Positions 1,319-53,999 of a DNA stretch of 64,000 nt are shown here, one piece after another. The translations under genes and the position numbers were made by a program. The notes beneath the pieces were generated by a model, which was given only the letters and a program-made list of their open reading frames with translations, ran no database searches and was not told the DNA's origin. Position 1 is the stretch's first letter. Each line of letters opens with the position of its first letter. The stretch spans positions 877,001 through 941,000 of the forward strand of contig NZ_PZZM01000001.1 in the NCBI RefSeq assembly GCF_003046175.1, read 5' to 3'. The stretch is from Bosea sp. 124. GTDB taxonomy: Bacteria; Pseudomonadota; Alphaproteobacteria; Rhizobiales; Beijerinckiaceae.

Positions 1319-1405
1319 GCCCAGGTGGCGGAATTGGTAGACGCACCAGCTTCAGGTGCTGGCGCTCGCAAGGGCGTGGAGGTTCGAGTCCTCTCCTGGG
1401 CACCA
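1319..1405 (+). tRNA. tRNA-Leu (anticodon CAG)
   Basis: Acceptor arms GCCCAGG (1319-1325) and CCTGGGC (1395-1401) pair fully. The anticodon stem CCAGC/GCTGG encloses the loop TTCAGGT with anticodon CAG, reading CUG codons. There is a long class-II variable arm, a T arm with GGTTCGAGTCC, and an encoded CCA end at 1403-1405. The integrase gene begins shortly downstream, so the 3' end of this tRNA is the likely attachment site. Confidence 0.97.
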
Positions 1406-1487
1406 CTTTTCTTCCTGTTTGATCGCAGGGAGTTAAGTGAAAACAAGGGTTTCCGTGAGATCAACTCTCACTCAGGAAGCTCACTCA

Positions 1488-3227
1488 ATGGCTCTACGAA
1501 TGGCCAGACCGATCAAGCGGGGAACCAGCGCCAACTGGCTCCTCAAAGTCCGCGTTCCATCCGACATCATCGACAAGGTCCAGGGACATGTCGTCCTGCC
1601 CATTGGTGGCAGGCGCACGCCGGTCGCCATAAGCGCCGGCTACGTCGAAGTCAGCCTGCGCACGTCCGATCCCGACGAAGCGGCTCTGCGCTATGCGGAA
1701 GCCCACGATGCCCTCCTTCAGCATTGGAAGGCCGTAAAGACCGGCCCCAAGCCGGTTTCGAAGCGCCAAGCCGTCGCTTTATCCGCCGACGCCTACCGTG
1801 AACGAATCAGCGAGATCGACGACGCGTCGATGGTCGCCGAGCGGGAGGCCATGAATGCCGAATTCGACGAATTCATCGTCCGACGCGCAGAGACCGAATC
1901 AGAGGAGCGCGACCAACTCGTCCTGGGTTGGTTCGAAGACGTCATCGCCGAACAGGGCGTCGATTTCATCGCGGTCATCGCGGCGCTCCTCCCTGGCTCC
2001 TTCCCCGCCGACCAGGAGGATCTTGCCCTCGAGAGCCGCTATGGCGCCCGCGTCGATGCGGCGCTGGCTTTGAGAGGCGCCCAGTGCGACGACGCCAGCC
2101 GCCCTTCCCTCCTCAAGGAGTTCCGCCGGGCGGAGCTTGCCGGAAGCAAAGCGCTCGGCCGCATGCTCGAGGGCGATTTCAGCGACGAGGAGAAGCCGGC
2201 CTACTTTCCCCCATTCGAGCCGCCTCAGCCCCCGGTCGCAGCATCCGCTCGGGTGCAGGCGCCAGCCTCAGAAGGCGGCGACGGCATGAGCATCGCGCAG
2301 CTCTTCAAGGCCATGCGCGAAGCCATGCTCGAGTTCGTCAAGCCTTCGACACTCCGTCGCTACCAGTCGACGATCGAGAAGCTGTCGGCGTTCACCGACC
2401 ACGCCGATTTCCGCACGCTGACCCGAGAACGCGTCAAGGAGTGGATCAAGCACCGGACGACCGAGGAGGGCATCAGCAAGAAGACGGTCAGGAACAACGA
2501 CCTCGTCGCCGTCCAATCGGTGTTGAATTTTGCGACCACGGATGAGGGCGGCGAACGGCTCAAGAAGAACCCGATCCAGGGCCTGACGATCAAACTGCCG
2601 AGGGCCTCCAAAACGAAGCACGAAAGACGCCTTTATCATGAGGAGATCGTCTCGATCCTCAAGGCCGCTAATGCGGTCGAGATCGGCGGTCGCTATCCGA
2701 AGTCCTCTGCGGGTAACCGTTGGACGCCCTGGCTCGCGGCCTATTCCGGCGCCCGCATCCAGGAACTTGTCAGCCTCGAGGCCGAGCATATTCGCAACGA
2801 GGGTGGCGCGTGGGTCATGGACCTCACGAAGACCAAGATGGATGAAGACCGCACGGTCCCTCTGCACGAGCACGTCATCGCGATCGGCTTCCTCGATTAC
2901 GTCCGAAGCGTCGGCAAGGGCCCGCTCTTCATCGATCCGCCTGAGGTCTCCGGTCGGACCGAGGCCGCGTCACGGGACGCATCCGAGGTTCGCGCATCCG
3001 GCGTCGCCGTCTTTATGCGCAGCAAGGCCAAGCTACGGAAGAATGTCGACCCGAACCACGGCTGGCGCGGCACCTGGAAGTCGATCGCGGCGAGCTTGGG
3101 CATCGAGGAGCGGTACCGCGACGCGATCACCGGGCACACGCCCGGCTCGGTCGGGCGCAAGTATGAAGCGCCCACGACCGCAGAGCTGGTCGAGGTCATG
3201 CAAAAGTTTCGCCGCTACGCCGTTTAG
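1488..3227 (+). CDS. Tyrosine recombinase (element integrase)
   Basis: Site-specific recombinase of the phage-integrase family, predicted to insert and excise the element at the adjacent tRNA-Leu. The ATG at 1488 (MALRMARPIKRG) is preceded by AGGAAG and is preferred to an in-frame start at 1437. About 579 residues, long for the family. The N-terminal half resembles the DUF6538-type domain of proteobacterial island integrases. An SAM-like core-binding region starts near residue 270. The C-terminal catalytic domain shows Arg423 (SGARIQEL), His524-Gly-Trp-Arg527, a second His in TGHTPGS and the nucleophile Tyr559 (GRKYEAP). Family assignment is firm; the substrate is inferred from position. Confidence 0.93.
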   Translation: MALRMARPIKRGTSANWLLKVRVPSDIIDKVQGHVVLPIGGRRTPVAISAGYVEVSLRTSDPDEAALRYAEAHDALLQHWKAVKTGPKPVSKRQAVALSADAYRERISEIDDASMVAEREAMNAEFDEFIVRRAETESEERDQLVLGWFEDVIAEQGVDFIAVIAALLPGSFPADQEDLALESRYGARVDAALALRGAQCDDASRPSLLKEFRRAELAGSKALGRMLEGDFSDEEKPAYFPPFEPPQPPVAASARVQAPASEGGDGMSIAQLFKAMREAMLEFVKPSTLRRYQSTIEKLSAFTDHADFRTLTRERVKEWIKHRTTEEGISKKTVRNNDLVAVQSVLNFATTDEGGERLKKNPIQGLTIKLPRASKTKHERRLYHEEIVSILKAANAVEIGGRYPKSSAGNRWTPWLAAYSGARIQELVSLEAEHIRNEGGAWVMDLTKTKMDEDRTVPLHEHVIAIGFLDYVRSVGKGPLFIDPPEVSGRTEAASRDASEVRASGVAVFMRSKAKLRKNVDPNHGWRGTWKSIAASLGIEERYRDAITGHTPGSVGRKYEAPTTAELVEVMQKFRRYAV

Positions 3228-12411: not shown

Positions 12412-13842
12412 TCAGGAAGCTGCCAGGGCGGGTACTTCCTCCAACTCTTGCGGCAGCGCGTCGCGGCGCTGCAGGAGCCAGGCCCTGATCTGATCGAGCG
12501 CAGCCCCCGAGCCAGGTTCGATCGTCGCGGCCAGTTCGTCGCAGCGCGCCAACGCCTTGGGGATGGTCAACCACGGCACCTCATCCTCGGTCGCGAGGCG
12601 GTGCCGCATCCAGTCCTGGCCCCGGCGCCGAGCCTCGGGCGAGAGCGCCTCCGGCGCGTTCAGGAAGATCTGCCGGAGCGCCAGGCTGCGCAGCCGTGGA
12701 TCTCTGATGTGCCAGGCGGTGAAGTTCTCGCGGAACTTCCACTCGATCTCGTGGAAGCGCTGGCAAGCAGCGACATCGGCGTCCGAGACGAAGCCGCCCG
12801 AATAAAGCTGCGCTTCGGGCCAGGGCGATGCCTCGCGATCGGCATACTGGTCCTTGAGCGCGAGGGCGAGCTGACGAAGGAATGTCGGGTGAGCCCATAG
12901 TGCCCGGGCCCGATCGCGATAGACATGATCGGGTTCGGGATCGACCAGGGCATGGGCGGCCTGGTGCCAGGCGAACAGGATGGGCATGGCGTTCGTCTTC
13001 ACCTGTCGCACCGGCGACCTGCTCGACCGGATCCGCGCGAGCAGGTCCTGTGCGGCCAGGTCGATGAACCCGGCTGGGTCCAGACTGAGGTCGATGCAAA
13101 CCCGGGCGTTGGGATTGGTTGGCGAACCAATCATGGGCAGCACCGGCGTCAGGCGCGACGTTCCGCCCAGGATTAGCGGCTCTCCTGGTTCCATCAGAGC
13201 GATCGGGCCTGATTTCTTGGCGTGACCGAGCATCGTCGCCATTGTCATCGGCGCCCGGTCGAGCAACAGCATGAACAGCTCGCGGGTCGCCCGGACGTCG
13301 GCGAGCGCGTCATGGGCGTCGTTCTCGCTGAGCGCTATTCCATTCGCCCTGCACACCGCGCCGAGCTTGAGCACGGCCTTGCCGGCGGCGTCGCGCGGGA
13401 TCACGACGGCCTCCGGTTCGGCCATCACGATCGCGCGCAGGCTCGTCAGCACGTCCAGTCGGCCGTGACCGGTCATCGAGGCTGCGTAGGGCGGCAGTAG
13501 TGTCTGAAACAGGGATGCCCTAAGCATTTCGTCGTCATAGCGGATAGAATTGTAGCCGACTAACATAGTTGGCTTGCAATCGGCGAGGATGCGGGCGATC
13601 TGCGCCATCATCTCAAGATGGCTCAGCGGCTGGTGTTCCAGCATCGCCGGCGTGACGCCGGTGGTGAGCAGCGCATCCGGCGACGGCACGACATGCGCGG
13701 GAACGCGACAACGGAGCACCAGTTCGCGCTGAAGGCGGTGGTCCGCGTCGGTCTGCAGAAAGGCAGCCTGCAGTGGCACGTCCCAGCAAGGGGCGAGACC
13801 CGAGGTCTCCAGATCATAGAAGAGGAATCCCATGGCGGTCAC
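12412..13842 (-). CDS. Exodeoxyribonuclease I-like 3'-5' exonuclease
   Basis: DEDDh-type exonuclease of about 476 residues, the length of exonuclease I (SbcB). Exo motif I is FYDLETSG at the N terminus, motif II lies in LVGYNSIRYDDEMLR, and motif III is HDALADVRAT with the catalytic His and Asp. The C-terminal half has the extended SH3-like and helical region of ExoI, which clamps single-stranded DNA. The GTG at 13842 overlaps the upstream gene's stop by 4 bp; an ATG nine bases further in (MGFLFYDLETSG) is also possible. As cargo of a mobile element it may process single-stranded transfer intermediates; that role is inferred. Confidence 0.85.
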   Translation of the reverse strand: MTAMGFLFYDLETSGLAPCWDVPLQAAFLQTDADHRLQRELVLRCRVPAHVVPSPDALLTTGVTPAMLEHQPLSHLEMMAQIARILADCKPTMLVGYNSIRYDDEMLRASLFQTLLPPYAASMTGHGRLDVLTSLRAIVMAEPEAVVIPRDAAGKAVLKLGAVCRANGIALSENDAHDALADVRATRELFMLLLDRAPMTMATMLGHAKKSGPIALMEPGEPLILGGTSRLTPVLPMIGSPTNPNARVCIDLSLDPAGFIDLAAQDLLARIRSSRSPVRQVKTNAMPILFAWHQAAHALVDPEPDHVYRDRARALWAHPTFLRQLALALKDQYADREASPWPEAQLYSGGFVSDADVAACQRFHEIEWKFRENFTAWHIRDPRLRSLALRQIFLNAPEALSPEARRRGQDWMRHRLATEDEVPWLTIPKALARCDELAATIEPGSGAALDQIRAWLLQRRDALPQELEEVPALAAS

Positions 13843-16269: not shown

Positions 16270-18795
16270 CTATCGTTCCCATGACCGGTCTCGCCCACGC
16301 TGCGCCAGGATCGCCCTCTGGCGCTTCTTGCCCCGGTCTCGCTTGTTGCGCTTTGGCGCGGGCGCGGGCGCGTCCTCGTCGACGTCGGTCGGCGGCTCGG
16401 TGGCGATGACCGGCTCGGGAAGCCTGACTGGGCTTATCCTCATCGGTGCCGTCTCCCCTGGAGCCTGGATCAACGCGACCGGCGCGCGCTCGAGCGGCGT
16501 CAGCTCCAGCGGGTAGGGCTTGACCTCGCCGGGCTGCGGCTTGGGCATGCGGGCGCGCTGCTTGAAGGCCGGTTCCGGTGGCCCCTCTTGTTGGGCGGCT
16601 GCGGCCGGCGCTGGGCGCCAGGGCGGCGGCGCGCCGGGCTGGGGCACCTCGCGGCCGTCTTGGTAGGACATGATCAGCTCCTCGGCCTTGAGCGGATGCT
16701 GCTTGACGGCGGCGATCAGCTTGTCGGCCAGGTCCTGGGGTGTCCGGCCGGGCACGTTGGGATCGGCGTTGTCGAGGATGAACTGGCCGTACCGCTTCGT
16801 GGTGTTCCACATGAACTTCTGGAAGCCGGTCTTGAACACCGTGTCGACCAGGTCGTCGTAGGACGCCCACATCGGGTGCTCGATCTGGGGCTTTCGCTTG
16901 AGCTCGACCGGCTTCTGCGGCGCGATGCTGATCGCCATTCCGCCCGTCCTGATTGCGGCCGGCGCGGCCGTCGGCGTCAGGTCGGGCCGAGCGCCGAGCG
17001 CGGCTGCGCGCCAGTCGCGCAGTGCCTGACGGACCTTGGCCATGCGGACAAGGCCGCTACGCTCGTGGCGCGCGGCGAGGATCTCGACCTCCTTGAGGGC
17101 AACCTGGTTGAGGAGCTTGGCGTGGGCCGTCTTGGGGACGGTCTCCATCTCCTTCTTCAGGCGGGCGACCTCTTTAGCGTTTCCGCTAGAGCGCGCCTTG
17201 ACGAGGCTCTCGGCCAGGCGCCCGCGCAGCTTGGCGATAACCTCCGGCTTGGTCGCCTCGATGATGCGCTCGACTGAGCGAATCTCCTGGTCGGCCTCGA
17301 TCGAGCGCACGATGTGGAGTGCGCGGGTGCGGGCATAGTCGAGCGCCTTGCGCTTGACCAAGGACTTCACCGCGTGGGCGCTGCGCCGCAGGATCGGCGT
17401 CTTCTTGAGGAAGGAGCCCTCCTTCTCCAGCGCGCGCAGCTCACGGTCGCCAGCCCGCACCGCGGCGCGGACCTTCGAGACCTCGGAGAACTCGGGCGCC
17501 CGCTCGCGGGCGAGGCGCTGCACCTCGGCCTCAATGTCGCGTTTGGTGCGGTCCTCGTCGAGGACGACGCGCTTGTTGGCCCTGGCCTTGTCGGTAATGA
17601 TCCGTGAGATCGAGCGCATCGCCTCGACCTCGAGGCCCATGGCCTTGTAGCTGCGCGCGTCGTAGCGGAGCGGATTGCCGGCCTCTTGCATGACGTCGTT
17701 GACGATCTGGGCGAGGCGCTTGCGCTCGTCAGGAATGAAATTCTTCTCGCGTGTGTCGGGATCGACATTCTTTCGATGAGGGTATGTTCGCCTGCGATGT
17801 TTGCTCCCGTCCGGGAGGTAGGCAACAGCGGCGAAGTCCCAGACTAGTCCTTGGGGCTTGGAGGTTCCGTCGTCCAGGCCATCAAAGGCGAAGGGCACCT
17901 TCTTTGCAGGGCGCGCCATATAGATGACGTGAGCGTGGAAGTTGCGCGGGTCGTTCTTGTCAGTCGGGGCGTGCAGGGCAGCGTGGAAGCGCAGTCCGCG
18001 CTTCTCCAGTCCGGCGGTGTAGCGTTTGACGATCTCGTGGCGCTGCGCCGGCGTCGACTCGACCGGCAGTTCCAGGATGATGCGGCTTTGCAGGCGCGCG
18101 TTGCCGCGCTCGGGATGGGCCTCGACCAGCTCCCAGAACGCCCTGCGCTCCTCCTTAGTGTGGCCGATGTTGCCGAAGGAGAAGGCGAGAGGCACGGGCG
18201 CTTGGCCCGGTGCGACCGCTTTGGCAGCCTCGACCTTCGCGGCGTCCTCGATGTAGGCCTGCATCCGGTCGGCCGGGTCGCGGCCGAAGGCCTCTTCGTC
18301 GATCTCATGGGATGAGAGCGTCAGGTCCACGCCTTCCTCCAGCATCGCCTGCTCGACGGCCGAGTCGCGATCGATGTAGCTCATGTGAGCGGCCGTCGTG
18401 CCGGTCTTGTGGGCCGACGCCCCCTCGGTGGCGTTGACGGTGGTGTGCGAGAAGTGGAAGGGGCGGCCGCCGGTGTCGGGCGCCGTCATCCTGATCGACG
18501 GCCGCGGGCCGGAGTTGTTGGCGTGGAAGTTGAGCGCCCCCTTGAGGGCGTTGGTGAGAGCCTTCTCAATGCCGCCCACCCGGGCGTTGGCGTGCCGGGA
18601 GAAGGGGTTGCGCCCGGCGTTCTTCCACTTGCGCTTAGCGTCCTTGGTGGCCTGGTCGGCGGCCTTCTTCAGCAGGCGCTCGACCTGCTTCTGATTGCCG
18701 CCGCCAAGGATTGACTTGCCCTCTACGAGATTGACGCTCTTGTCTGGTGCCTTCGCCACGCAGCTCACGCCCCGCCGTAACCGCATCGGTTCCAT
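16270..18795 (-). CDS. MobA/MobL-type relaxase
   Basis: Large relaxase-like protein (841 residues). The conserved core around residues 125-340 includes HMSYIDRDSAVEQ, an HEIVKRYTAG helix and the metal-binding NFHAHVIYMARP, the three-histidine type signature of MobA/MobL relaxases. After it come basic coiled-coil regions and a Pro/Ala-rich tail ending in a Lys/Arg cluster. It is expected to nick the element's oriT and pilot the strand. The gene starts next to the palindrome-rich 18.8-20.2 kb region, the natural place for its oriT. Start ATG 18795, with an alternative ATG nine bases later. Confidence 0.85.
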   Translation of the reverse strand: MEPMRLRRGVSCVAKAPDKSVNLVEGKSILGGGNQKQVERLLKKAADQATKDAKRKWKNAGRNPFSRHANARVGGIEKALTNALKGALNFHANNSGPRPSIRMTAPDTGGRPFHFSHTTVNATEGASAHKTGTTAAHMSYIDRDSAVEQAMLEEGVDLTLSSHEIDEEAFGRDPADRMQAYIEDAAKVEAAKAVAPGQAPVPLAFSFGNIGHTKEERRAFWELVEAHPERGNARLQSRIILELPVESTPAQRHEIVKRYTAGLEKRGLRFHAALHAPTDKNDPRNFHAHVIYMARPAKKVPFAFDGLDDGTSKPQGLVWDFAAVAYLPDGSKHRRRTYPHRKNVDPDTREKNFIPDERKRLAQIVNDVMQEAGNPLRYDARSYKAMGLEVEAMRSISRIITDKARANKRVVLDEDRTKRDIEAEVQRLARERAPEFSEVSKVRAAVRAGDRELRALEKEGSFLKKTPILRRSAHAVKSLVKRKALDYARTRALHIVRSIEADQEIRSVERIIEATKPEVIAKLRGRLAESLVKARSSGNAKEVARLKKEMETVPKTAHAKLLNQVALKEVEILAARHERSGLVRMAKVRQALRDWRAAALGARPDLTPTAAPAAIRTGGMAISIAPQKPVELKRKPQIEHPMWASYDDLVDTVFKTGFQKFMWNTTKRYGQFILDNADPNVPGRTPQDLADKLIAAVKQHPLKAEELIMSYQDGREVPQPGAPPPWRPAPAAAAQQEGPPEPAFKQRARMPKPQPGEVKPYPLELTPLERAPVALIQAPGETAPMRISPVRLPEPVIATEPPTDVDEDAPAPAPKRNKRDRGKKRQRAILAQRGRDRSWER

Positions 18796-20207: not shown

Positions 20208-22033
20208 ATGTTTGGCGAAGATGATCGACCGCGGTGGGTGCGCGACCTTGTTCGCTTTCTTCCTCTGAAAAGCCAGTTCGTCCTTACTGGAAACGTCAGA
20301 GATCTCCAGATCCGTAGGCTCGGCGAGCACGTCATTGCGCAGCCGATGACGGCGGTTCTAACGGCGACCTTGGTCGAGGCGGGTTACGGCCACGTCATAG
20401 GATATGACCCGCTCGCGGGCTTCTCAGTGTTATCGCAATTCAATGACCGTTCAGATGATGCCGATGCCATCTTGACGAGGTTGGGGCTGACTGCAGCAGG
20501 AGGGCGTGCTCCGGCTGGTCCCGACCTCTTTGGAATCACGCTTGAGCGACTGGTCGGGCTCGAGGGTTCACCCGTCGCGCTTGTGGTCGATTTCGCCGCT
20601 CGCCTAACGATCCGGCCCGAGGCGCTTTCGGCAGCGGAGCATCAACTTTTTACCCGCGCCTTGGTTCTGGGCCAAACGGCGAGCGCCAGACCGTTAGGGC
20701 CTGACCGCGCTCCCCGGTTCAACGCCGTGATCTGGCTTGCCGACAAGGAGGGAGACCTTCCGGATTGGCTGACGATCGGAAATCCTCGGCTGCGGCACAT
20801 ATCGGTCGCTCCTCCAGACCGCGCTGCCAGGCGAGCCGTTGCGCCCTCGCTCGTCCGTGGACTTCCGGGCGCCAAGGACGCCACGTCAGAAGCCATCGGC
20901 GAGGCCGAGGACGACATCGTCGATGCGACAGAGGGGATGCTCCTCAGCGACCTCAGCGCCGTCATCCAATTGGCGCGAACCGAGGTGTTGCGGTTGCCGA
21001 GGTTTCGGAGGCCGTGCGCCGGTACAAGGTCGGCGTCACGGAGGATGCCTGGCTGAAGATCGAGACCGATCGGATCCGCAACGGCGCAGATGCCCTGTCC
21101 CGGCGCGTGATGGGCCAGGACCACGCGGTCGTCCACATGCTCGACATCGTCAAGCGCGCTGCCACGGGGATCGGTGGCCGCCGCGGTTCAGGAAGGCCCC
21201 GGGGTATCGCGTTCCTCGCCGGCCCGACAGGGGTAGGCAAGACCGAGCTTGCCAAGTCGGTGACGGAGCTCCTCTTCGGCGACGAGAGCGCCTACATCCG
21301 TTTCGACATGTCCGAGTTCAGCACGGAGCACGCGGACCAGCGTCTCGTCGGTGCACCGCCCGGATACGTCGGCTATGACGTCGGCGGGGAACTGACCAAC
21401 GCAATCCGTGAGAAGCCGTTCAGTGTTGTCCTGTTCGACGAAATCGAAAAGGCGCACCCTCGAATCTTGGACAAGTTCCTCCAGATCCTCGACGACGGGG
21501 TTCTGACGTCGGGTCGGGGCGAACGCGTGTATTTTTCCGAGGCCCTGATCGTTTTCACGTCGAATCTCGGCATCTACTCCACGACGCCTGACGGGGCGCG
21601 AGTCGCCAACGTGCTGCCCGAACAGCCGTACGACGAGGTGCGCTCGCGCGTGCGCGTCGAGATCGCCAACCACTTCAAACTCGTGCTCAACCGGCCGGAG
21701 ATCCTGAATCGGTTTGGCGAAAACGTGATCGTCTTCGACTTCATCCGTCCCGCCGTCGCCGAGCGGATCTTCGCGTCGATGATAGACGCCGTCCTCCGCG
21801 ATGCTGCCGCGGCCGGCCACGTCGTGTCGATTGATGACGGGCCCCTTGATGCGCTTCGGCAGCTCTGCACGTCCGACCTTTCGAACGGCGGGCGGGGTAT
21901 CCGCAATCAGATCGAGGCCCATCTGCTCAACCCGCTCGCCCGCGCCCTCTTCGACAGAGGCGGCCGAGGTTCGGTCCAAGTAACCGCCATCCGGCCTGGC
22001 GCCGTCACCGAGCTGGAGCTCGCCGACGCGTGA
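20208..22033 (+). CDS. ClpB-like AAA+ ATPase, reading frame broken by a -1 shift near 20984
   Basis: First gene of the four-gene candidate defence operon. The N-terminal part (MFGEDDRPRWVRDLVRFLPL) reads in one frame to about 20984. The rest, from GVAVAEVSEAVRRYK to 22033, reads in the -1 frame. Joining TE to GVAVAEV restores a smooth protein of about 608 residues. The second half is a ClpB/ClpA D2-type module: Walker A GPTGVGKTEL, pore loop PPGYVGYD, Walker B VVLFDEIEKAHP, sensor 1 FTSNLG, arginine finger RPEILNRF and a sensor-2 region NGGRGIRNQIE. The first half looks like a degenerate ATPase without Walker A. The break is a 1-base deletion (real or sequencing) or a recoding site; no obvious slippery heptamer is seen. 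An earlier TTG at 20136 is possible but less likely as the start. Confidence 0.75.
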
Positions 22034-22674
22034 AAGTGGCCGTTTCGCGATTGCACTTTCCGGTGACTGCCCTGGGACCGGGCCGGCGCGTCGGCCTTTG
22101 GTTCCAGGGCTGTTCGATCCGTTGCCCAGGCTGCATCTCCGTTGACACATGGGATGCCGGGATCGGCGAGACTGCAGTCGCCAACTTGTTGGATGCCATC
22201 GACACATTGGCGGCAGACGCGGACGGGCTCACGGTCTCTGGTGGGGAGCCCTTCGGGCAGCCGGAAGCGCTCGCCGAGGTGCTGCGGTTCTGGCGGCGAC
22301 GCTATACCGGGTCCGTCCTCGTCTACACCGGCCACGAGTTGGGTGACGTTGAGCCTTGGCTCGGCGAGAACCAGGGCCTCATCGACGGGCTCATGACCGG
22401 GCCATTCCGAGCGGACTTAAGCCAAACCATGGCGCTGCGAGGCAGCGACAATCAGCGCCTTCACGTCCTCTCGCCCCTAGGTCGCGAGTTCGCGCCTTTC
22501 GACAGGCCGGCGGGAAAGAAGGACCGCACCCTGGACGTGATGTTCGATGACCAGGGTCGGGCGTGGCTTGCCGGTATTCCCGCGCGCGGAGATCTCGCGC
22601 ACCTCCGCCGCGCCCTCTCGGCCGCCGGCCATGAGGTTCAGATGTCGGACTCGATCCGGAACTTGCCACGATGA
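22030..22674 (+). CDS. NrdG-like radical-SAM 4Fe-4S protein
   Basis: Protein of 214 residues. It shows the radical-SAM cluster motif C-x3-C-x2-C (GCSIRCPGC, near residue 28), the SAM-binding SGGEPFGQPEAL and the short barrel typical of glycyl-radical-activase-like enzymes such as NrdG. There is no ribonucleotide reductase or other glycyl-radical enzyme in the window, so its substrate is probably a partner in this operon. It starts with GTG overlapping the previous stop by 4 bp, and its stop overlaps the next ATG. The family is clear, the role is unknown. Confidence 0.88.
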   Translation: MKVAVSRLHFPVTALGPGRRVGLWFQGCSIRCPGCISVDTWDAGIGETAVANLLDAIDTLAADADGLTVSGGEPFGQPEALAEVLRFWRRRYTGSVLVYTGHELGDVEPWLGENQGLIDGLMTGPFRADLSQTMALRGSDNQRLHVLSPLGREFAPFDRPAGKKDRTLDVMFDDQGRAWLAGIPARGDLAHLRRALSAAGHEVQMSDSIRNLPR

Positions 22675-25600
22675 TGCGCTACTGCCCGAATTGCGAGTCC
22701 GAGCGTCCGGTCACGGAACTCCTCTGCGAAGGCGAAGTCGATGGCGTCGCATGCGGCTGGGACCTGTCCGGACAGCCCGTACGCCCGGAGGGGTGGAGGC
22801 CCGGAGCAGCACCGATCCCGGCCACGCCTGCACGGACTTACGTCTGTGAGAATGGCCATGCCGTTGATGCTGGTGACCTGATTTGCCCGGAGTGTGGAGG
22901 CGACGTCGGCCTCGCAGCGCCGTCGCCTACGGCGATATTGGTCGCAAGCGAAGGAGCCGGTGGCCTCGCCGGATCTGACGCCGTTGATGATGCACCACTC
23001 CCTCCCGACGGGTGGCGCATCATCAGTAGGCTACCTCTGGTGGGCCGCGTGCGGGAGAGCTTCGTCGCCGAGCGCTCGGTCGACGGCCGCAAGGGCATGT
23101 ACTCGCTCTACGCCGCCGGCAGCGATCCTGATCCGGAGGTGTACCAGGCGCTGCGGGCTATTTCAGTCGGACACGTGCCGGAGATCCTGGAAACGGGCCG
23201 GTTGGATGATCGGGCGTACGAGGTCACTGAGTACGTAGATGGTGGGACCCTCGCAGACGTCGGTCTTCCGATCGGCGACCTGGGGCACCTGCGCGAAGTT
23301 CTGGCAGAAGTCGGCTCCGCTCTGGCTGCCTTGGCAGAATGCGGGCTGCGCCATCGTGACCTGCGGCCAGACGCGATCCTGGTCCGGACGCGACGGCCAC
23401 TCGACCTGGTCATCGCCGACTTCGGCTCGGCGCGGCTCTCGGACTACGACCTCGACGTGGTGTCGCCCCTGGAGACGACCCGATACACCGCTCCTGAAGC
23501 TCTCGCCGGCGGCGTCGCCGCGGCCAGCGACTGGTGGTCCCTTGGGATCATCCTGCTGGAGCTGATGACGGGGGGCGAGTGCTTCGGCGGGGCCGACGAC
23601 CAGTCGTTTCTGATCAACGTGTTGACCAACGGCGCGCCGATCCCCGAAGGCCTGCCGCCCGACGTCGAGGTCCTCTTGCGGGGCCTGCTCTCGCTCGACC
23701 GTCGCACGCGGTGGGCGTGGCCGGAGGCCCAAAGGTGGATCGCTGGCGACATCCCAGATGCGCCGGCCGCCACGCGCGTTTCGGAAGCGACGGACGCTCG
23801 ACGGGCGATCGTGTTGGGTGGGGTCAGGCACGCCGGCCCGAGGGCGTTCGCCTTGGCCGCAGCCGAGGCGCAGCGGTGGGAGGAGGCGAAGGCCCTGCTC
23901 GAGCGTGGGGAATTGTCGACCTGGGCGGAGGAGGCTGGACTCGACGCAGCGTTGCGTCGGTCTCTGCGCGCGATCATCGCCCTTGAAGACGTCTCGCCCG
24001 ACATTCGTCTCGCCCTGGCGCTGAAGGCGATGAACCCGCTGATGCCGCTCGTCGTCCGCGGAGAGATCGTCACCCCAGGATGGCTGCTCGAACACCTCGA
24101 CGAGGGCTACGCGCTGATCACGGGGCCGGTACCCGAGAGGCTCGAGCGCGAGGGGAGCGAGGGATGGCTGGGGCGCCTACAGCGCAGGGAGGCCCGCGTG
24201 CGCGAAAGGGCACGCCAACTCGACGTCGAGCTCGACGAGGCGGAGTTGCGCGTCGCTGCGCTCTCAACGTCCCGCAGCAGGCTGGCTGCGGTCTGGGAGG
24301 ATAGGCGCCGCATCCTGCCAGACACCGACCACCCCGGTTTGCTGGCCCTGATCGAACGCCGCGTGACCGAGGAGGAGGACCTGATCCTGCTCCTCAGCGC
24401 CGCGATCGGCCAGTTCCGGGCAGCTGATGCCATCGTCGACGAGGCCGCGACGACGGCGGAGCGCGCCGGCGTGAGCACCTTCAACCGGGAGGAGGCGCTC
24501 GCGCAGATCGCTAGGCCCCGCCGGGACATCCACGCGGAGATCGAGCTCAGGCTCGAGGGCTTTGCCCGATGTGGCCTCGACCGGGTCGACGAATGGGCCG
24601 ATCAGTTCCGCCTGGAGCGGCGCCTACCGCTGAGCCGGTCGCTTGCGCTCCTTGCCGTCCCGGCAGAAGCTTGGACACCGCCCCCGCGCCAGACCTACGT
24701 CGCGGCCCTGCTCGATTTCTTCGCCAAGCGCATCACCGGCGCGATCATGCGCGGTCCGCTGACCCGCATGGTCATCGGCAAGGCCGCGGCGAGGATAGAC
24801 CTGCCGGAGCTCGACAGCGAGAGGCGCCCTGCTGCTGGCATCCTCGACCACCTGCTCCTGCGCAACGACCAGCCCATCGACATCGACCCTGCCGTGTTCG
24901 CCGCCAATCCGCAGATCGAGCGCAGGATCCGGACGCTGCATTCCCACGCCACCCTGTACAGGCGCGACACGGGCATCGACGGGCTCTACATGGCCTTCCC
25001 GTTCCTGGTCATGCAGGAGGCGCGCGCCACGACGCGCCCGCGGATCGCGCCGGTCATACTCTGGCCGGTGCGGATCACGCCCGAGGTCGGCGCGCGCGGC
25101 CGCATCTCGGTGTCATTCGACCGGGACCGGGAAGAGGTGCGCGTGAACCCTGCCCTCGAGGCGCTCCTCGGCATCGACGCGGCCCGGCGCTGGCAGGACG
25201 TCTGCGACGACCTCCTGCGGCGAGCGACGGTTACGGCAGCGGAAGTCGTCGACGCGTTCGCGGACCTGGCCAAAGTCGGCAGCGACGCCCTCAGACCCCT
25301 TCCGCCCACGGACCTGCGCGTCACGCCCGGGGAGGATCGGGTCGAGGCATGCGCTGCCTTGTTTCACCTCGGCTTCATGGGGCAGGCGGTCATGGAGGAC
25401 CTCCGCCAGCTCAAGTCGCGGCCGCCGGAGGGCACCAGCCTCGAAACGGCGCTGAGGATGAGCGAAGTCGGACCTGCGGACGAAACCCCATCCGAGCACG
25501 TGCCGGAGAGGCTGCGGTACTTCACGTCCGAGAGCGACCCTTCTCAGGAAGCCGCTGTCCTTGAAGCCCGCTCGGGTAAGGGACTGGTCGTCGAGGGCCC

Positions 25601-28600
25601 GCCGGGGACCGGCAAGAGCCAGACGATTGTCAACATGGTCGCCGACGCCATCGGCACCGGCCGGACGCTGCTCGTCGTCTGCCAGAAGCAGGCCGCGCTT
25701 GAGGTCGTGAACAAGCGCCTTGAGGCCGCCGGCCTCGGCGGGCGCGTGGTCATGGTCAACGACGTCAACAAGGACAGGGAGCCCGTACTGCGGGCCGTCC
25801 GAGAACAACTCGAAGAACTCTTGCAGAGGCCGCGCGGCCCCACGGGATGGCAGCAGCAAAGGGAGCAGGCCGCGGCCCGCGTCGAGACACTCGAGCGCAA
25901 CCTCGATGATCATCACCGCGCGCTCCATGCTCTCGATGACCAGACAGGCCTCTCGTACCGATTGATGCTGGGGGACCTGATCGATCTCGCGCGCGACGGC
26001 GATACGCCCTCGCTCCCGTCCCTTCGCCAGTTGCTCGCCGGACTGGATACTGGCGGCCTCGCGATGCTCCAGGAGGACTGCGCGCCGACTGCACGCCTAT
26101 GGTTGTCCGCTCGCTACGAGAACAACCCGCTCGCCGAGACCAAGGCGTTCGCCACCGACCCCGGCACGGTCGAGGTCTTCTCCACGGCTCTTCGCGAATT
26201 TGCCCAAGCCGAGAAGGAGCGCCTCGCTGTCGTCGAGCGGACGCCTGGTGCCCTCGCGATCGACGACCCCGAGCCCTACCGGACCTTCGCCACGAACCAC
26301 GGCGCTGTCTTGCGGGAACTCGACGACGAGGCGCGAACCTCGTTGGCCAAGTGGCTCGACCTCTTGGCCGGCGCGGCGGATCGGGGCCTCGGCAAAACGC
26401 CGGTACAGGTCGAGTTGGGGGCCTTGCAGCGAGCTCTTGGAGAGCTGCCCCCCGACAACGCCCCTGAGGACGCCGTCGCCTTCGTCCAGTCGCTCGATGA
26501 CGTCGCCCTGGCGCGATGGCTGGCAACGTCCGATCGCCTCCTCGCGCGTCCGACCTTCGTCCAGAAGCTATCACCGGGACGCTGGCTCGCAGTCTGGCGC
26601 CGCCGTTCTCTGATGAAGGCCGCCGACCTCAGAGATGTGGCGGCGCTGGGAATGGCTTTGCATCGGGAGGGCTCGCTCCGCCCGCTCCGGAGCCGAATCA
26701 AGGCAGCCCAGGCGACCATCGGCGAACCCGATGGCGACTTGGCCAAGCGCCGCGTGCCGCACCTACTCCAGGCTACGCAGAGCGTCTCGGCGCGCCTATC
26801 AGCGAGCGAGACGCTCGTGGCGCGCTTGGAGGACTATCCGTCGAAGGACGCGGCTTACGCCGTCGCCCGCACGGCCACAGCTGCTGCGGTCGACGACCTG
26901 CTCCTTTCGATTGGCCGGGGTCTCATGCGCCACATTGCACGTGAGAAGAGCCGTGCGGCGCTGGCGGACCTACAGCCCTGGATGGCCGACGATTGGACTG
27001 AGAGCTGCTCTTCCGCGATCGCAGGCGACATCTCGAACATGGCCAAGATCGACGCCATCCTCGGGGCCCTCCCGCAGACCGCCGCGTACCAGCGCTTCCG
27101 GGCCCGCGCGTCCCAACTCGGGCAAGGGACCATGGTGGTCTTCGCCCGGCTGGCATCAATCAGGACCCTCTTAGAGTCGCTCACCCCCGAAGCTCTGGAG
27201 TCGACGGTCAGACGGATCATCGGCACCGAGGCCAGGCTGGCTTGGAAAGCGAGGATCGAGCAGGCCCATCCCGCGCTTCTCCTCGACGCGGGCGAACTCG
27301 AGAGCAAGGCGCAGTTGCTGGCTTCGGCGGACCGGGACATGCGCGCCTTCAACAAGCGCCTACTGGTCGATGGGATCGACGTCGCGAAGCTGCGCCCCTT
27401 GCGGGAATGGGAAGACATCACCCGGCTGCGCGGGGCCCGGGCGAGGCGGATGCGCGAGTTCGTCGAGCGCGGAGCCGATCTCGGCCTCATGACCCTGCGT
27501 CCGGTGTGGCTCGTCAATCCTGACGTGGCAAGCCGCCTGCTGCCGCTCCGCAAAGGCTTCTTCGACACCGTCATCTTCGACGAGGCTTCCCAGATGCCGA
27601 TCGAGTACGCGCTCGCGGCGCTCTACCGAGGCAAGACGATGATCGTCAGCGGCGACGAGAAGCAGATGCCACCGACCGCCTTCTTCTCGAGCAGGGTCGA
27701 GAACGACGAGGCCGGCATCTTCGAGGGAGCCGCGGCCGAGGAGGACCTCGGCGAGGACGAGCGCGAGGCGGCCCAGGAGACGTGGAATCGGCGCGAGATC
27801 AAGGATTGCCCGGACCTGCTGCAACTTGCCAAGATCGTCCTGCCCTCGCGCACCCTCGAGATCCACTACCGCTCGGCCTATAGGGAGCTCATCGCTTTCA
27901 GCAACGCGTCGTTCTACGCCGGGCGGCTGAACGTGCCGGCGCGGCATCCTGGGGACGAGATCCGACGCATCCAGCCTATCGAGGTCGTGCGGGTTGACGG
28001 GACCTATGCCGACCAGACCAATCCGGCCGAGGCCGAGCGGGTGGTCGACATCGTGCGCGACGTCTGGCTTGATGGGTCCGGCGTGCCTCCGACGCTGGGC
28101 GTGGTGAGCTTCAACCGCAAGCAGGCGGATCTGATCGAAGAGGCCCTCGAGGCGCGCGCCGAGATCGACCAGGCCTTCCGCCTCGCCCTGGCGCGCGAGC
28201 GCGACCGCGTCGAGGGCGGCGAGGACATGGGGTTCTTCGTCAAGAACGTCGAGAACGTCCAAGGTGACGAGCGCGACATCATCGTGTTCTCGTCGACCTT
28301 CGGCCGGAATGCGCAAGGGACGTTCCGGCGGTCGTTCGGCGTCCTGGGGCAGGTCGGCGGTCAGCGGCGCCTGAACGTCGCGGTGACCCGCGCCAAGAAG
28401 AAGGTCGTCCTCGTCACGTCCATGCCGATCCCCCTGATCTCGGACTTCCTGTCGACGCGCAGGCAGGCGGCGAGCGCCCGCGACTTCCTTCAGGCGTATT
28501 TCGAATATGCCAGCCTCGTCTCCAGCGGCGACCTCGATAGCGCTGGTTCGCTCCTTTCCAGACTCTCGCCGGAACGGTCCCGCTCGAGCAAATACGATGG

Positions 28601-28931
28601 CGCCGCCGACGGATTGGAGGCGGCCGTCTCGGATGAACTGAAGGCGCTGGGGTGGGAACCGGCCACGGTCTCGGAGGACGGCGCGTTCGGCATCGACCTT
28701 GCGGTCGAGGATCCCCGTACGGGACTTTTCGGAATCGGCATCGAGTGTGACGCTCCTCGCCATCCCCTCCTCGATCGCGCCAAGGCGAGGGAGGTCTGGC
28801 GCCCGCAGGTGCTCCAACGGTCCGTGAAGGTCATGCACCGGGTCTCGTCTCATCGCTGGTATCATGAGCCGGAGGTCGAGAGGACGAGGCTTCGCGACGC
28901 GGTTGCGCGAGCACTTGGAGAACGCTTGTGA
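22671..28931 (+). CDS. Zinc-ribbon / kinase-like / SF1 helicase / REase fusion protein
   Basis: 2086 residues. Cys5, Cys8, Cys19, Cys28 and then Cys59, Cys72, Cys75 form zinc ribbons. Residues ~120-370 are a Ser/Thr kinase-like domain with HRD (228-230), DFG (250-252), APE and DWWSLG, but the usual beta-3 lysine is not evident. A long helical region follows. The SF1 helicase of the Upf1/DNA2 type has Walker A GPPGTGKSQT (976 on), Walker B DEAS (1637 on), GDEKQMPP, and motifs V-VI in NVQGDERDIIVFSST and NVAVTRAKKK. The last ~100 residues are a Vsr/MTES_1575-like nuclease with Asp2009 and Glu2025-Cys-Asp2027 plus a trailing HRWYHEP. This domain order recalls Mokosh-type defence helicases, which pair a kinase-helicase with a PLD nuclease. 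Coupled by 4-bp overlaps to its neighbours. Confidence 0.88.
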   Translation: MMRYCPNCESERPVTELLCEGEVDGVACGWDLSGQPVRPEGWRPGAAPIPATPARTYVCENGHAVDAGDLICPECGGDVGLAAPSPTAILVASEGAGGLAGSDAVDDAPLPPDGWRIISRLPLVGRVRESFVAERSVDGRKGMYSLYAAGSDPDPEVYQALRAISVGHVPEILETGRLDDRAYEVTEYVDGGTLADVGLPIGDLGHLREVLAEVGSALAALAECGLRHRDLRPDAILVRTRRPLDLVIADFGSARLSDYDLDVVSPLETTRYTAPEALAGGVAAASDWWSLGIILLELMTGGECFGGADDQSFLINVLTNGAPIPEGLPPDVEVLLRGLLSLDRRTRWAWPEAQRWIAGDIPDAPAATRVSEATDARRAIVLGGVRHAGPRAFALAAAEAQRWEEAKALLERGELSTWAEEAGLDAALRRSLRAIIALEDVSPDIRLALALKAMNPLMPLVVRGEIVTPGWLLEHLDEGYALITGPVPERLEREGSEGWLGRLQRREARVRERARQLDVELDEAELRVAALSTSRSRLAAVWEDRRRILPDTDHPGLLALIERRVTEEEDLILLLSAAIGQFRAADAIVDEAATTAERAGVSTFNREEALAQIARPRRDIHAEIELRLEGFARCGLDRVDEWADQFRLERRLPLSRSLALLAVPAEAWTPPPRQTYVAALLDFFAKRITGAIMRGPLTRMVIGKAAARIDLPELDSERRPAAGILDHLLLRNDQPIDIDPAVFAANPQIERRIRTLHSHATLYRRDTGIDGLYMAFPFLVMQEARATTRPRIAPVILWPVRITPEVGARGRISVSFDRDREEVRVNPALEALLGIDAARRWQDVCDDLLRRATVTAAEVVDAFADLAKVGSDALRPLPPTDLRVTPGEDRVEACAALFHLGFMGQAVMEDLRQLKSRPPEGTSLETALRMSEVGPADETPSEHVPERLRYFTSESDPSQEAAVLEARSGKGLVVEGPPGTGKSQTIVNMVADAIGTGRTLLVVCQKQAALEVVNKRLEAAGLGGRVVMVNDVNKDREPVLRAVREQLEELLQRPRGPTGWQQQREQAAARVETLERNLDDHHRALHALDDQTGLSYRLMLGDLIDLARDGDTPSLPSLRQLLAGLDTGGLAMLQEDCAPTARLWLSARYENNPLAETKAFATDPGTVEVFSTALREFAQAEKERLAVVERTPGALAIDDPEPYRTFATNHGAVLRELDDEARTSLAKWLDLLAGAADRGLGKTPVQVELGALQRALGELPPDNAPEDAVAFVQSLDDVALARWLATSDRLLARPTFVQKLSPGRWLAVWRRRSLMKAADLRDVAALGMALHREGSLRPLRSRIKAAQATIGEPDGDLAKRRVPHLLQATQSVSARLSASETLVARLEDYPSKDAAYAVARTATAAAVDDLLLSIGRGLMRHIAREKSRAALADLQPWMADDWTESCSSAIAGDISNMAKIDAILGALPQTAAYQRFRARASQLGQGTMVVFARLASIRTLLESLTPEALESTVRRIIGTEARLAWKARIEQAHPALLLDAGELESKAQLLASADRDMRAFNKRLLVDGIDVAKLRPLREWEDITRLRGARARRMREFVERGADLGLMTLRPVWLVNPDVASRLLPLRKGFFDTVIFDEASQMPIEYALAALYRGKTMIVSGDEKQMPPTAFFSSRVENDEAGIFEGAAAEEDLGEDEREAAQETWNRREIKDCPDLLQLAKIVLPSRTLEIHYRSAYRELIAFSNASFYAGRLNVPARHPGDEIRRIQPIEVVRVDGTYADQTNPAEAERVVDIVRDVWLDGSGVPPTLGVVSFNRKQADLIEEALEARAEIDQAFRLALARERDRVEGGEDMGFFVKNVENVQGDERDIIVFSSTFGRNAQGTFRRSFGVLGQVGGQRRLNVAVTRAKKKVVLVTSMPIPLISDFLSTRRQAASARDFLQAYFEYASLVSSGDLDSAGSLLSRLSPERSRSSKYDGAADGLEAAVSDELKALGWEPATVSEDGAFGIDLAVEDPRTGLFGIGIECDAPRHPLLDRAKAREVWRPQVLQRSVKVMHRVSSHRWYHEPEVERTRLRDAVARALGERL

Positions 28932-30256
28932 GCGGACCGAAAGTCGTCAGGATCGTCACCCGCGAGGAGAGCGAGGCCATCTGCCGCGGGCTGCTGGCGC
29001 GCATCGACGCAGCTTTGGAGCAATGGACGCGGGCGGGGCGCCTGCACGATTGCATCGACGACGCCGCGATCGCCGCCGCCGAACGCCGTCGCGACAGCCT
29101 CTCGGCGCTGGTGAGCCAAGGTCGGTTCGCAGACATGCAGACCCAGGCACCGGCCGAAGTGTCATTTCTTCGAGCGGACATGACCACGAGGCTGGCGAAG
29201 GTGGTCGCGGCGAAGGCGGTCGCCCGGACCCATGCCCGGCGCCGCGTCGAGGCGGCCACGACCTTGCTGCGAGCCCTCCGGGAGGCTGGCATCGACGTTG
29301 GAGCGGAGACGGTGCGCGGCCTTGAGCAAGGTGATCAGGGAGCGCTCGCCGAGGGCTTTCGCGCGCTCGCCGGTAACCGCGCGCCATCCGAGACCAGCAG
29401 CGCCCTTGCTCACAAGTTGCGGCTCGGCGAGACGCCCGCGTCATTCGCTGACTGGCTCGCAGGCCAGCCTGCGCCGGAGGTTGATCCCGGGATCGCAAGG
29501 ATCGAGGCGCGACTGGACGAGCTGGCGACCCTAGAGGTCGCCACTCCCATCGAAGGCCTCCACGCTCGCCTCGAAGAAGCCCGACGTGCGCAACCGTCTC
29601 GACGGTCGCTCATTCTCGACGGCTTGGAGGTCGAGACAGGACGGGTCCTAGCCGACGCGCGCAGGGTGGCCCAGCTGCTTTCGGAGCTGCGTCTACGGGT
29701 AGCCGAGCTGAAAGAAGTGGGCCTGCCTTGCGACGCCTTTGACGAGGCGGGCGCAGCCACGCCGTCGGAGGCGTTAGAGCGGGCCCTAGCGGCGGCGGAT
29801 ATGGCTCTGGCAGAGCACAGCGCCAAGGCGGCGGCCGACTCGCGCCGGGCCGCCGTGATGAAGGGACTAGCAGGCCTGGGTTACGAGGTCCGAGAGGGAA
29901 TGACGACGACGTTCGCTCGAAGTGGCAAGCTCGTAGTCGCCGACTCCGCCAGGCCGGGCTACGGCGTCGAACTGAGCGGGGCCGCAGACGCCCGCCAGCT
30001 GCAGATGCGCCCCGTCGCGCTCGAAAGGGCCGGGCAGGCCTCGGACCCATCGCGAGACCGCGACGCAGAGACCATTTGGTGTGGCCAGGTTACCCAGCTT
30101 GCGAAGGCGCTTGCCGATGCGGGCGGTGGGCTCGAGATCATCAGATCGTTGCCCATAGGCGCCACGCCTCTCAAGCGGATCACCGAGGCGGCCTCGAAGG
30201 AAAACGAACGCGTCGAAACTGAGAAAATGGTCGAACGCAAGCTTCGGTCGACGTGA
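28928..30256 (+). CDS. Coiled-coil protein of the candidate defence operon
   Basis: Unrecognised 442-residue protein with a GTG start overlapping the helicase stop by 4 bp. It begins SGPKVVRIVTREESEAICR, the same kind of opening as other short Arg/Glu-rich adaptor proteins encoded beside large helicase systems. Most of the chain is Ala/Glu/Arg-rich helix predicted to form coiled coils (28-130, 200-310). A more globular C-terminal stretch (GLGYEVREGMTTTFARSGKL then QLQMRPVAL) may be a binding domain. No enzymatic motif is visible. Likely a structural or sensor subunit of the complex; inferred from operon position. Confidence 0.75.
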   Translation: MSGPKVVRIVTREESEAICRGLLARIDAALEQWTRAGRLHDCIDDAAIAAAERRRDSLSALVSQGRFADMQTQAPAEVSFLRADMTTRLAKVVAAKAVARTHARRRVEAATTLLRALREAGIDVGAETVRGLEQGDQGALAEGFRALAGNRAPSETSSALAHKLRLGETPASFADWLAGQPAPEVDPGIARIEARLDELATLEVATPIEGLHARLEEARRAQPSRRSLILDGLEVETGRVLADARRVAQLLSELRLRVAELKEVGLPCDAFDEAGAATPSEALERALAAADMALAEHSAKAAADSRRAAVMKGLAGLGYEVREGMTTTFARSGKLVVADSARPGYGVELSGAADARQLQMRPVALERAGQASDPSRDRDAETIWCGQVTQLAKALADAGGGLEIIRSLPIGATPLKRITEAASKENERVETEKMVERKLRST

Positions 30257-40382: not shown

Positions 40383-41426
40383 ATGCGGGTCGGCATCAAC
40401 GGCATGGGGCGCATCGGGCGCCTGGCTCTGAGGGCGGCGCTCGGCGCGGCGCAGCGGCAGGGCGATGATCCGCGCGCCGGCAACCGGCTCGATGTCGTGC
40501 ATCTCAACGAGATCAAGGGCGGTGCGACCGCGACCGCCCATCTGCTCGAATTCGACAGCATGCAGGGGCGCTGGCGTGCCGATATCGGGCCTGAAGGCGA
40601 GGCCGCGGTCCGGATCGACGGGCGGCGGATGGGTTTCTCCGCAGAGGCTGCACCGGGCGACATTCCCTGGGGTGATCTCGGCGTCGATGTCGTGCTCGAA
40701 TGCACCGGCAAATTCCTGACGCCGGCCGTTATCGAAGGCCATCTGAAGCGCGGCGCCAGACGCGTCATCGTGGCCGCGCCGGTGAAGGACGCATCCGTCC
40801 TGAACGTCGTCGTCGGGATAAATGAGCACCTTTACGATCCGGCAGCGCACCCGATCGTCACGGCCGCCTCATGTACCACCAACTGCCTGGCGCCCGTGGT
40901 GAAGGTCGTGCACGAGAATCTGCGGATCCGGCACGGCCAGATCACCACGATCCATGATCCGACGAACACCAACGTGGTTGTGGACGCACCTCACAAGGAT
41001 CTGCGCCGGGCGCGCTCGGCGATGCTCTCGCTCCAGCCGACGACGACGGGCAGCGCCACCGCGATCGCGCTGATCTACCCCGAGCTCAAGGGCAAGCTAG
41101 ATGGCCACGCCGTGCGCGCCCCCGTCCTTAACGCCTCGCTGACCGACTGCGTCTTCGAGCTCGAGCGCGCGACGACGGCCGCCGAGGTCAACGCCCTGTT
41201 CGAGGACGCGGCACGGGGACCGCTCGCCGGCATCCTCGGGTTCGAGCCGAGGCCGCTCGTGTCGATCGACTACCAGCGCGACACGCGCTCCTCGATCGTC
41301 GACGGGCTCTCGACGCTGGTCACCGACGGGACGATGTTGAAGGTCTACGCCTGGTACGACAACGAGATGGGCTACGCCTGCCGCATGGTCGATCTCGCCT
41401 GCCATCTCGAACAGGTCGGGATCTGA
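40383..41426 (+). CDS. ArsJ-associated glyceraldehyde-3-phosphate dehydrogenase
   Basis: GAPDH of 347 residues. N-terminal NAD fold [20 protein letters not shown], catalytic Cys in [15 protein letters not shown]-terminal [15 protein letters not shown]. Known from ars operons: it uses arsenate in place of phosphate to make unstable 1-arseno-3-phosphoglycerate, which ArsJ exports. The arsJ gene follows by 5 bp. Distinct from a housekeeping GAPDH by its context. Confidence 0.93.
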
Positions 41427-41431
41427 CGCGT

Positions 41432-53985: not shown

Positions 53986-53999
53986 GGTCGATCCTCCCT

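Follow-up and report, generated by a model that had tools for sequence, protein, structure and literature searches.

A four-gene operon at positions 20208-30256 of a 64,000-nucleotide window of Bosea sp. 124 DNA appears to be one type, here called type I, of a modular, horizontally moving conflict system, most likely directed against phages or rival mobile elements. We put the probability of this reading at about 0.6. The window covers positions 877001-941000 of NZ_PZZM01000001.1, the single contig of a 5.47-Mb genome (G000), and positions are given within the window unless the contig is named. Labels beginning with L or G denote loci or genomes of relatives. The operon, as found in the window, has the following parts.

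20208..20999 (frame open to 21056), plus strand: gene 1, N-terminal half, a Clp-D1-like AAA+ fold without a P-loop (alignment with 27 relatives; model of L002)
20972..20986, plus strand: frame break in gene 1, approximate and placed by eye
20999..22033, plus strand: gene 1, C-terminal half, a Clp/Hsp100 D2 domain in a different frame from the N-terminal half (Pfam AAA_2, E 2.6e-44; motifs in 66 of 66 relatives)
22030..22674, plus strand: gene 2, an NrdG-like radical S-adenosylmethionine (SAM) protein with CxxxCxxC and GGEP (Pfam Fer4_12, E 7.2e-23)
22671..28931, plus strand: gene 3, 2086 amino acids, two zinc ribbons, a degenerate protein kinase, DUF4011, a superfamily 1 (SF1) helicase and an MTES_1575 nuclease (Pfam scan; 66-row alignment)
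28928..30256, plus strand: gene 4, an MSGPK N-terminus, long helices and a C-terminal alpha/beta domain (457 homologues at E 0.001; 45-row alignment; model)

The initial annotation had treated the four genes as one system whose order should recur elsewhere, and it does recur. A scan of genome contigs with gene 3, in which the best 80 of 81 relatives were kept, yielded 73 distinct loci, and 65 of these are complete, with the order and strand of all four genes unchanged. Six of the remaining eight are cut by contig ends (L005, L037, L039, L048, L052 and L060), and the other two (L061 and L064) look broken; under the same match as L061, a plasmid record is annotated with an ISKra4 transposase. 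Among the complete loci, neighbouring frames overlap between genes 1 and 2 in 42, between genes 2 and 3 in 46 and between genes 3 and 4 in 52, and the non-overlapping gaps are at most 30 nucleotides in all but four loci (L044, L062, L070 and L074), two of which (L044 and L062) had gene 3 only partly picked up. Moreover, the distance matrices of the four genes co-vary across the 61 loci in which all four are full length (Mantel r 0.917-0.979; 0 of 500 permutations as high). The hosts of the 73 loci are mostly Alphaproteobacteria, and include Flavobacteriia, Verrucomicrobia, Acidobacteria, a Riflebacteria bin and Hahella (Gammaproteobacteria). A protein search with gene 3 alone found further carriers of that gene in Pseudomonas asplenii, Burkholderia, Paraburkholderia, Teredinibacter and Tenacibaculum. 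The four genes are a genuine conserved unit.

In the window, the four genes had been described as joined by 4-bp overlaps. The frames of genes 2, 3 and 4 and all three overlaps (22030/22033, 22671/22674 and 28928/28931) stand, but gene 1 is not one frame from 20208 to 22033: the frame of the N-terminal half ends at a stop at 21056, and the ClpB-D2 half is read in a different one, open from 20765 to 22033. Both halves were located in 67 relatives, and a single open frame joins them in 66, the exception (L064) being a degraded copy; a programmed frameshift was thereby ruled out. The ratio of nonsynonymous to synonymous substitution rates (dN/dS), taken against three relatives, is 0.083-0.103 for both halves of gene 1, 0.13-0.16 for gene 2, 0.09-0.13 for gene 3 and 0.14-0.24 for gene 4. 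Because both halves of gene 1 are under strong purifying selection, the break is either a recent event or an assembly error.

Gene 1 had been taken for a ClpB D2-type AAA+ protein. The D2 half is indeed there, with its P-loop, Walker B, GYVG pore loop, sensor and Arg finger present in all 66 relatives, but a further N-terminal half precedes it, and the score against the ClpB model TIGR03346 (246 bits; cut-off, 1232) places the protein outside that family. The model of an intact relative, L002 (predicted local distance difference test (pLDDT) 80.6; predicted template modelling score 0.58), aligns over its full length with the D1-D2 of ClpC/ClpB in a structure comparison (best E 3.9e-23). In the D1-like half, that is, the first 285 amino acids, a P-loop was seen in only one of the 66 relatives. 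Three Clp loci of the same genome served as a control: two show two P-loops each, and the third, its frame unresolved, shows none. Unfoldases of the ClpA/ClpC/ClpX type that dock with ClpP carry an [LIVM]G[FL] loop between the sensor and the RPE motif, and no such loop was found at that place in any of the 66 relatives. Given a D1-like half without a P-loop, a complete set of D2 motifs and no ClpP-docking-like loop, gene 1 is predicted to form a one-engine, disaggregase-like threading ring.

The reading of gene 2 as an NrdG-like radical-SAM protein stands. CxxxCxxC is present in all 66 clean copies, including that of the window, and the GGEP and GSDNQ motifs are conserved in a 68-row alignment; the score against NrdG itself (TIGR02491) is 72.6 bits, below the cut-off of 126.1.

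The domain order first read from gene 3, namely zinc ribbon, kinase-like domain, SF1 helicase and Vsr-like nuclease, was recovered by the Pfam scan and by the alignment (65 loci plus the window), with DUF4011 added before the helicase. Two N-terminal cysteine clusters are read as the zinc ribbons. Helicase motifs I, II and VI and most of III and V are invariant in all 66 rows, and the MTES_1575 domain, which is Vsr/restriction endonuclease (REase)-like, scores 59.5 bits against a Pfam cut-off of 38.2. Its acidic residues are those of a PD-(D/E)xK/MTES_1575 nuclease, with D2009 kept in 66, E2025 in 65 and D2027 in 63 of the 66 rows. An active Ser/Thr kinase needs an N-lobe Lys, the HRD Asp, a catalytic-loop Asn and the DFG Asp. 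The kinase-like domain is present as proposed, but in most members its catalytic residues are not: the HRD Asp is kept in 64 of 66 rows and APE in all, whereas the DFG Asp and the catalytic-loop Asn are each kept in 22, and no position between residues 112 and 164 has a Lys in more than half of the rows. The domain is thus degenerate in most members, as judged from these residues, and may be active in some. In the window copy, HRD and DFG are kept and the catalytic-loop Asn is gone.

Gene 4 was originally called a coiled-coil protein, which fits its long helices but leaves out the C-terminal alpha/beta domain seen in its model (pLDDT 91.8). The MSGPK N-terminus is invariant in all 45 aligned rows. 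Structure comparison of the model gave no clear known fold, a KA1-like one being a candidate for the tail, and the window copy belongs to no Pfam, NCBIfam or PADLOC family; its relatives show scattered weak Pfam matches, with DUF6303 in 7 of 45 (best E 1.5e-4). Two resemblances were considered and set aside. Single-sequence phmmer matched polyubiquitin (E down to 2.4e-21), but a search with the family profile turned up no ubiquitin and the model has helices in that region, so the similarity is put down to chance. G318-Y319 is invariant and mostly followed by x-V, which recalls a glycyl-radical motif; that motif carries an upstream Arg, which is absent here, and an LGYEV-like turn is common.

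The operon was also said to lie in a mobile-element setting, as it does. The features that bear on this are the following.

1380..1407, plus strand: attachment repeat of 28 bp at the 3' end of tRNA-Leu; the second copy lies 96,627 bp downstream, at about 975007-975034 of the contig, beyond the window
1437..3227, plus strand: tyrosine integrase adjoining tRNA-Leu (Phage_integrase, E 7.3e-6; 26.3 bits, slightly below Pfam's 27.1)
16270..18795, minus strand: MobA/MobL relaxase (E 9.3e-17)

The repeat pair, together with the integrase and the relaxase, establishes that the operon sits on a tRNA-Leu island of about 96.6 kb. Relatives are also found on plasmids: at least 80% of gene 3 is covered in 8 of 72,556 plasmid records and at least 80% of gene 4 in 9, and five of the 11 plasmid records with gene 4 are typed as conjugative. 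Among 67 genomes of the genus, the gene 4 profile matched six, of which three are near full length, one lies at a contig end, one is a fragment and one is divergent; gene 2, at E 1e-30, was detected in 5 of 101 relatives, each of which is also one of the six genomes matched by gene 4. The fragment, in G039 (L115 10341-10748), stands alone in a genome without a gene 2 match and is 82% identical over 137 residues; it is probably the remnant of a lost operon. Across the phylum, the gene 4 profile matched 3 of 398 genomes, the source genome included (four candidates per genome were scored), and in the order of Hahella it matched 1 of 390, Hahella itself.

The system is modular: genes related to genes 1 and 2 turn up repeatedly, together with a gene-4-like partner, next to outputs of other kinds. 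In G031 (L114 2158-12098), a divergent member of the genus, a gene-4-like gene, whose MSGPK is preceded by a short extension, an Hsp100-like gene and a radical-SAM gene are followed by a Zn-ribbon-FHA protein and a PP2C phosphatase (both recognized by eye), a hypothetical protein, and a kinase (HRDxxxxN, DFG) with Sel1 repeats. The kinase part of this locus matches the gene 3 profile at E 6e-49; for the gene-4-like protein, the match to the gene 4 profile is at E 1e-22. A plasmid search with the G031 Hsp100 matched 1827 records, of which the best 40 were viewed, the lower ones being named Clp chaperones; 11 records, among the matches listed, cover at least 80% of it. Eight plasmid records were inspected for gene content. 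Five of them, from Photobacterium, Polaromonas, Moellerella, Acinetobacter and Leisingera (L120, L121, L123, L124 and L125), carry genes for an AAA-domain protein, a PIN-domain protein, a hypothetical protein, an Hsp100 and an NrdG-like radical-SAM protein, in that order. Matches of the AAA-domain proteins to the gene 3 profile are weak and fall on helicase motifs, and these helicase-like/PIN operons apparently represent a second type of the same core. In E. coli, no place covers 80% of a type II Hsp100 gene at the DNA level. The Aristaeella plasmid encodes a DUF4011 protein, kinases, FHA, PP2C and an MSGPK protein; that of Geminocystis (L122 1-10974) encodes an Hsp100-like and a gene-4-like (MSGSPK) protein and several proteins with GTPase-like P-loops (by eye), with a 4Fe-4S single cluster protein some kilobases upstream. 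The eighth, from Rhizobium, is type I.

All eight Hsp100 variants match the gene 1 profile (E 2e-120 or better), and all seven radical-SAM variants match the gene 2 profile (E 3e-26 or better). The single P-loop lies in D2 in 11 of 11 variant Hsp100 proteins, and the GYVG pore loop is found in eight, being missing from the three Geminocystis-like ones. DFG is present in 4 of 4 variant kinases and HRDxxxxN in 2 of 4. At E 1e-80, the Hsp100 profile is passed by 364 of the 398 phylum genomes, because ordinary ClpB passes too; above 500 bits, only seven remain (G266, G220, G388, G076, G068, G000 and G243). Six of these seven matches reach into the N-terminal half, that of G000 being the window's own C-terminal half. 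G000, G220 and G388 are type I, G076 is of the kinase form, and G068 and G243 are Geminocystis-like, with no radical-SAM or 4Fe-4S gene seen in their short contigs. In G266, genes 1 and 2 are present with a portion of gene 3, and no gene 4 was seen in the stretch examined, consistent with the lack of a gene 4 profile match in the phylum scan. Common to the forms, then, would be a threading ATPase, a radical-SAM enzyme and, by a weak link, a helical adaptor, with an output that differs and is of a nucleic-acid or a signalling kind. The kinase is separate and active-looking in G031 and G076, and fused and mostly degenerate in type I, which suggests that the type I kinase became a docking or sensing part.

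As a separate observation, another AAA ATPase is encoded together with DUF2997 and an NrdG-like radical-SAM protein on plasmids of actinobacteria and Paenibacillus (L161, L163 and L164), with DUF1257 as well in L163. Pairs of AAA and radical-SAM proteins on mobile DNA may therefore extend beyond the gene 1/gene 2 family.

None of the four proteins reaches an NCBIfam antiphage cut-off, and the PADLOC profiles, run as had been proposed, gave partial matches only. Gene 3 scores 493.7 bits against ProA (NF058533; cut-off, 1500), with its best stretch at residues 953-2082, and 338.1 bits against Hhe (NF042953; cut-off, 2000). With PADLOC, it scores 481 bits against PDC-S37, 239 against Hhe and 159 against MkoA. 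Mokosh, first named as the nearest family, thus gives way to PDC-S37, Hhe and ProA. The named antiphage proteins ProA and Hhe share a homologous helicase and C-terminal nuclease part with gene 3, and Hhe is described in NCBIfam as containing DUF4011; the best ProA stretch excludes the zinc ribbons and the kinase-like domain of gene 3, and both proteins, as far as single-protein models indicate, would work without Hsp100, radical-SAM or gene 4 partners. The PADLOC candidates PDC-S37 and PDC-M37B are the best matches of gene 3 and of the gene 1 D2 half (94 bits), respectively, over stretches only; for PDC-S37, these are three stretches, the best at 771-1341, of a 1550-residue model without a stated cut-off. 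The match to MkoA lies, in its best stretch, within the shared SF1 helicase part. Mokosh has a PLD-family nuclease partner or domain and, to our knowledge, no radical-SAM or Hsp100 partner; no PLD domain was found in the Pfam scan of the four proteins.

FtsH ternary systems offer another comparison. They combine an AAA+ protein, whose first ATPase domain is dead while the second is active, with MoxR and vWA components and exchangeable effectors, and a radical-SAM domain in one subtype is thought to modify a peptide effector (PMC7159879). Dead and active AAA domains, radical-SAM and exchangeable effectors are shared with the present operon, whereas the AAA protein here is Clp-type, with AAA_2 as its best match, rather than FtsH-type with MoxR and vWA; the Pfam scan of the four proteins gave no vWA match. 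The right flank of cDHS1, a core defence hotspot of Pseudomonas aeruginosa, holds a small hypothetical gene, a large DUF4011 gene and a radical-SAM gene side by side; the flank is reported as the border of the hotspot and not as a system, and the DUF4011 gene is present in every isolate (PMC10250203). In these gene descriptions, the flank resembles the operon. Of the neighbours there, we take PA2725 to be chaperone-like and PA2726 to be a radical activating enzyme. No published description of the four-gene set was found in open-licence literature, a search that did not cover subscription papers and preprints.

In the simplest model, a core would license or release an output. The core would comprise an Hsp100-like ring in which the first ATPase domain is dead and the second works (gene 1), a radical-SAM enzyme (gene 2) and a helical adaptor (gene 4), coupled to an exchangeable output module, here gene 3. 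Gene 2 would put a radical-based modification on a partner, most probably gene 4, because gene 4 is the sole partner without a known catalytic domain and its N-terminus is invariant. Gene 1 would use ATP to thread or remodel the gene 4/gene 3 complex, which the zinc ribbons and the degenerate kinase of gene 3 might sense or hold. Once triggered by foreign nucleic acid, the SF1 helicase would translocate and the C-terminal nuclease would cut. A bolder and less probable proposal sees in genes 1, 2 and 4 the core of a mobile conflict class not yet described. An NrdG-type activase would equip the gene 4 adaptor with a protein radical or a radical-made modification, and the Hsp100 ring, with its one engine, would use the modified adaptor to arm interchangeable effectors (helicase-REase, helicase-PIN or kinase/FHA/PP2C); in type I, the kinase of the signalling form would have joined the nuclease in one protein and, in most members, become a pseudokinase. 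Were this so, radical chemistry would gate immunity.

As to function, the initial annotation spoke of an undescribed antiphage or anti-plasmid system. A conserved, mobile and patchy unit that lies below the NCBIfam cut-offs agrees with the first part of this claim; the antiphage role, on the other hand, stays an inference, and a defence role is likely. The company of defence genes was assessed at 43 of the 73 loci, from which 162 near neighbours were chosen, 150 listed and 142 scanned (eight long ones were dropped for size), with 121 open reading frames from 17 arbitrary stretches of other genomes as the control. At 1e-10, the neighbours matched 114 PADLOC families and the control 35; GajA, ZacA, PDC-S54, MTase_II, DruM and MkoA are among the 25 of 114 listed. 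These counts do not amount to a per-gene test, because many families can match one protein.

Several points weigh against a conflict system. The 25 listed of the 35 control families are mainly kinase models of one protein, and also include MzaA and MkoA; of ten long neighbours scanned singly, three matched at 1e-10; and the PADLOC matches among neighbours are only suggestive as evidence of defence. Among the variant gene-4-like proteins, the gene 4 profile finds only that of G031, and for a group of eight the link to gene 4 consists of a moderate hhalign match (54%, E 1.3e-4, 107 columns) and of position. The operon copy in the window may be inactive, because its gene 1 is broken. No relatives of genes 3 and 4 were found in viral contigs by three scans with few peptide patterns, and carriage by phages was accordingly rejected, two unannotated phage records being matched by the helicase or kinase part only. 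Repair-type proteins recur as neighbours (SbcCD/YhaNO-like pairs, by eye, and SNase). If the cDHS1 flank is the same operon, the presence of its DUF4011 gene in every isolate fits housekeeping better.

The last two points also speak for a host complex of genome maintenance or stress repair, in which the helicase-nuclease would handle damaged DNA or RNA-DNA structures, the unfoldase would clear stuck proteins and the radical-SAM protein would maintain a cofactor or radical. RecB-like proteins likewise recur adjacent (by eye), the strong purifying selection suits such a role, and the genes may be core in P. aeruginosa if those of the cDHS1 flank are the same. The operon is nevertheless patchy within the genus (six of 67 genomes), is carried on an island in the window and on plasmids elsewhere, and has core relatives paired with very different outputs, which is unusual for a repair complex; we consider this alternative unlikely. 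Less probable again is a fitness module of the mobile element itself, acting against competing elements or aiding persistence or transfer and not aimed at phages as such. The integrase and MobA/MobL relaxase of the window's island are in keeping with it, as are the relatives and variants on plasmids, some typed as conjugative, but genes of mobile elements are uncommon among the nearest neighbours: within the 25 Pfam families listed for the 142 scanned, Resolvase occurs twice, beside SMC_N (4), SNase (4) and Metallophos (3). A chance neighbourhood of four housekeeping-like genes is scarcely credible, even though genes 1-3 have wider relatives (Clp, NrdG, kinase and helicase), since an order kept over several phyla and the co-varying distances exclude it.

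Should the reading as a modular conflict system be correct, the defence libraries used here lack a mobile system that occurs in several phyla. That system would bring together an Hsp100 unfoldase, an enzyme resembling glycyl-radical activases and an effector acting on nucleic acids, whose joint working we found nowhere described. The swapping of outputs provides a ready comparison for finding the function of the common core. If the operon is the same in Pseudomonas, it would also offer a possible role for the DUF4011 and radical-SAM genes that border the defence hotspot.

Other genes lie on the same island. A DUF2326 and CTD10 protein of an ABC-three-component (ABC-3C) system, at 4268-6301, points to a second possible conflict module. 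Between the integrase and the relaxase, on the minus strand, are an AAA ATPase (9556-10761) and an exonuclease-I-like gene (12412-13842). The cargo, which we take to be of a metal/arsenic type, includes GAPDH and MFS genes (40383-42682), a P-type ATPase (46196-48760), and Rieske and molybdopterin proteins (51523-54521).

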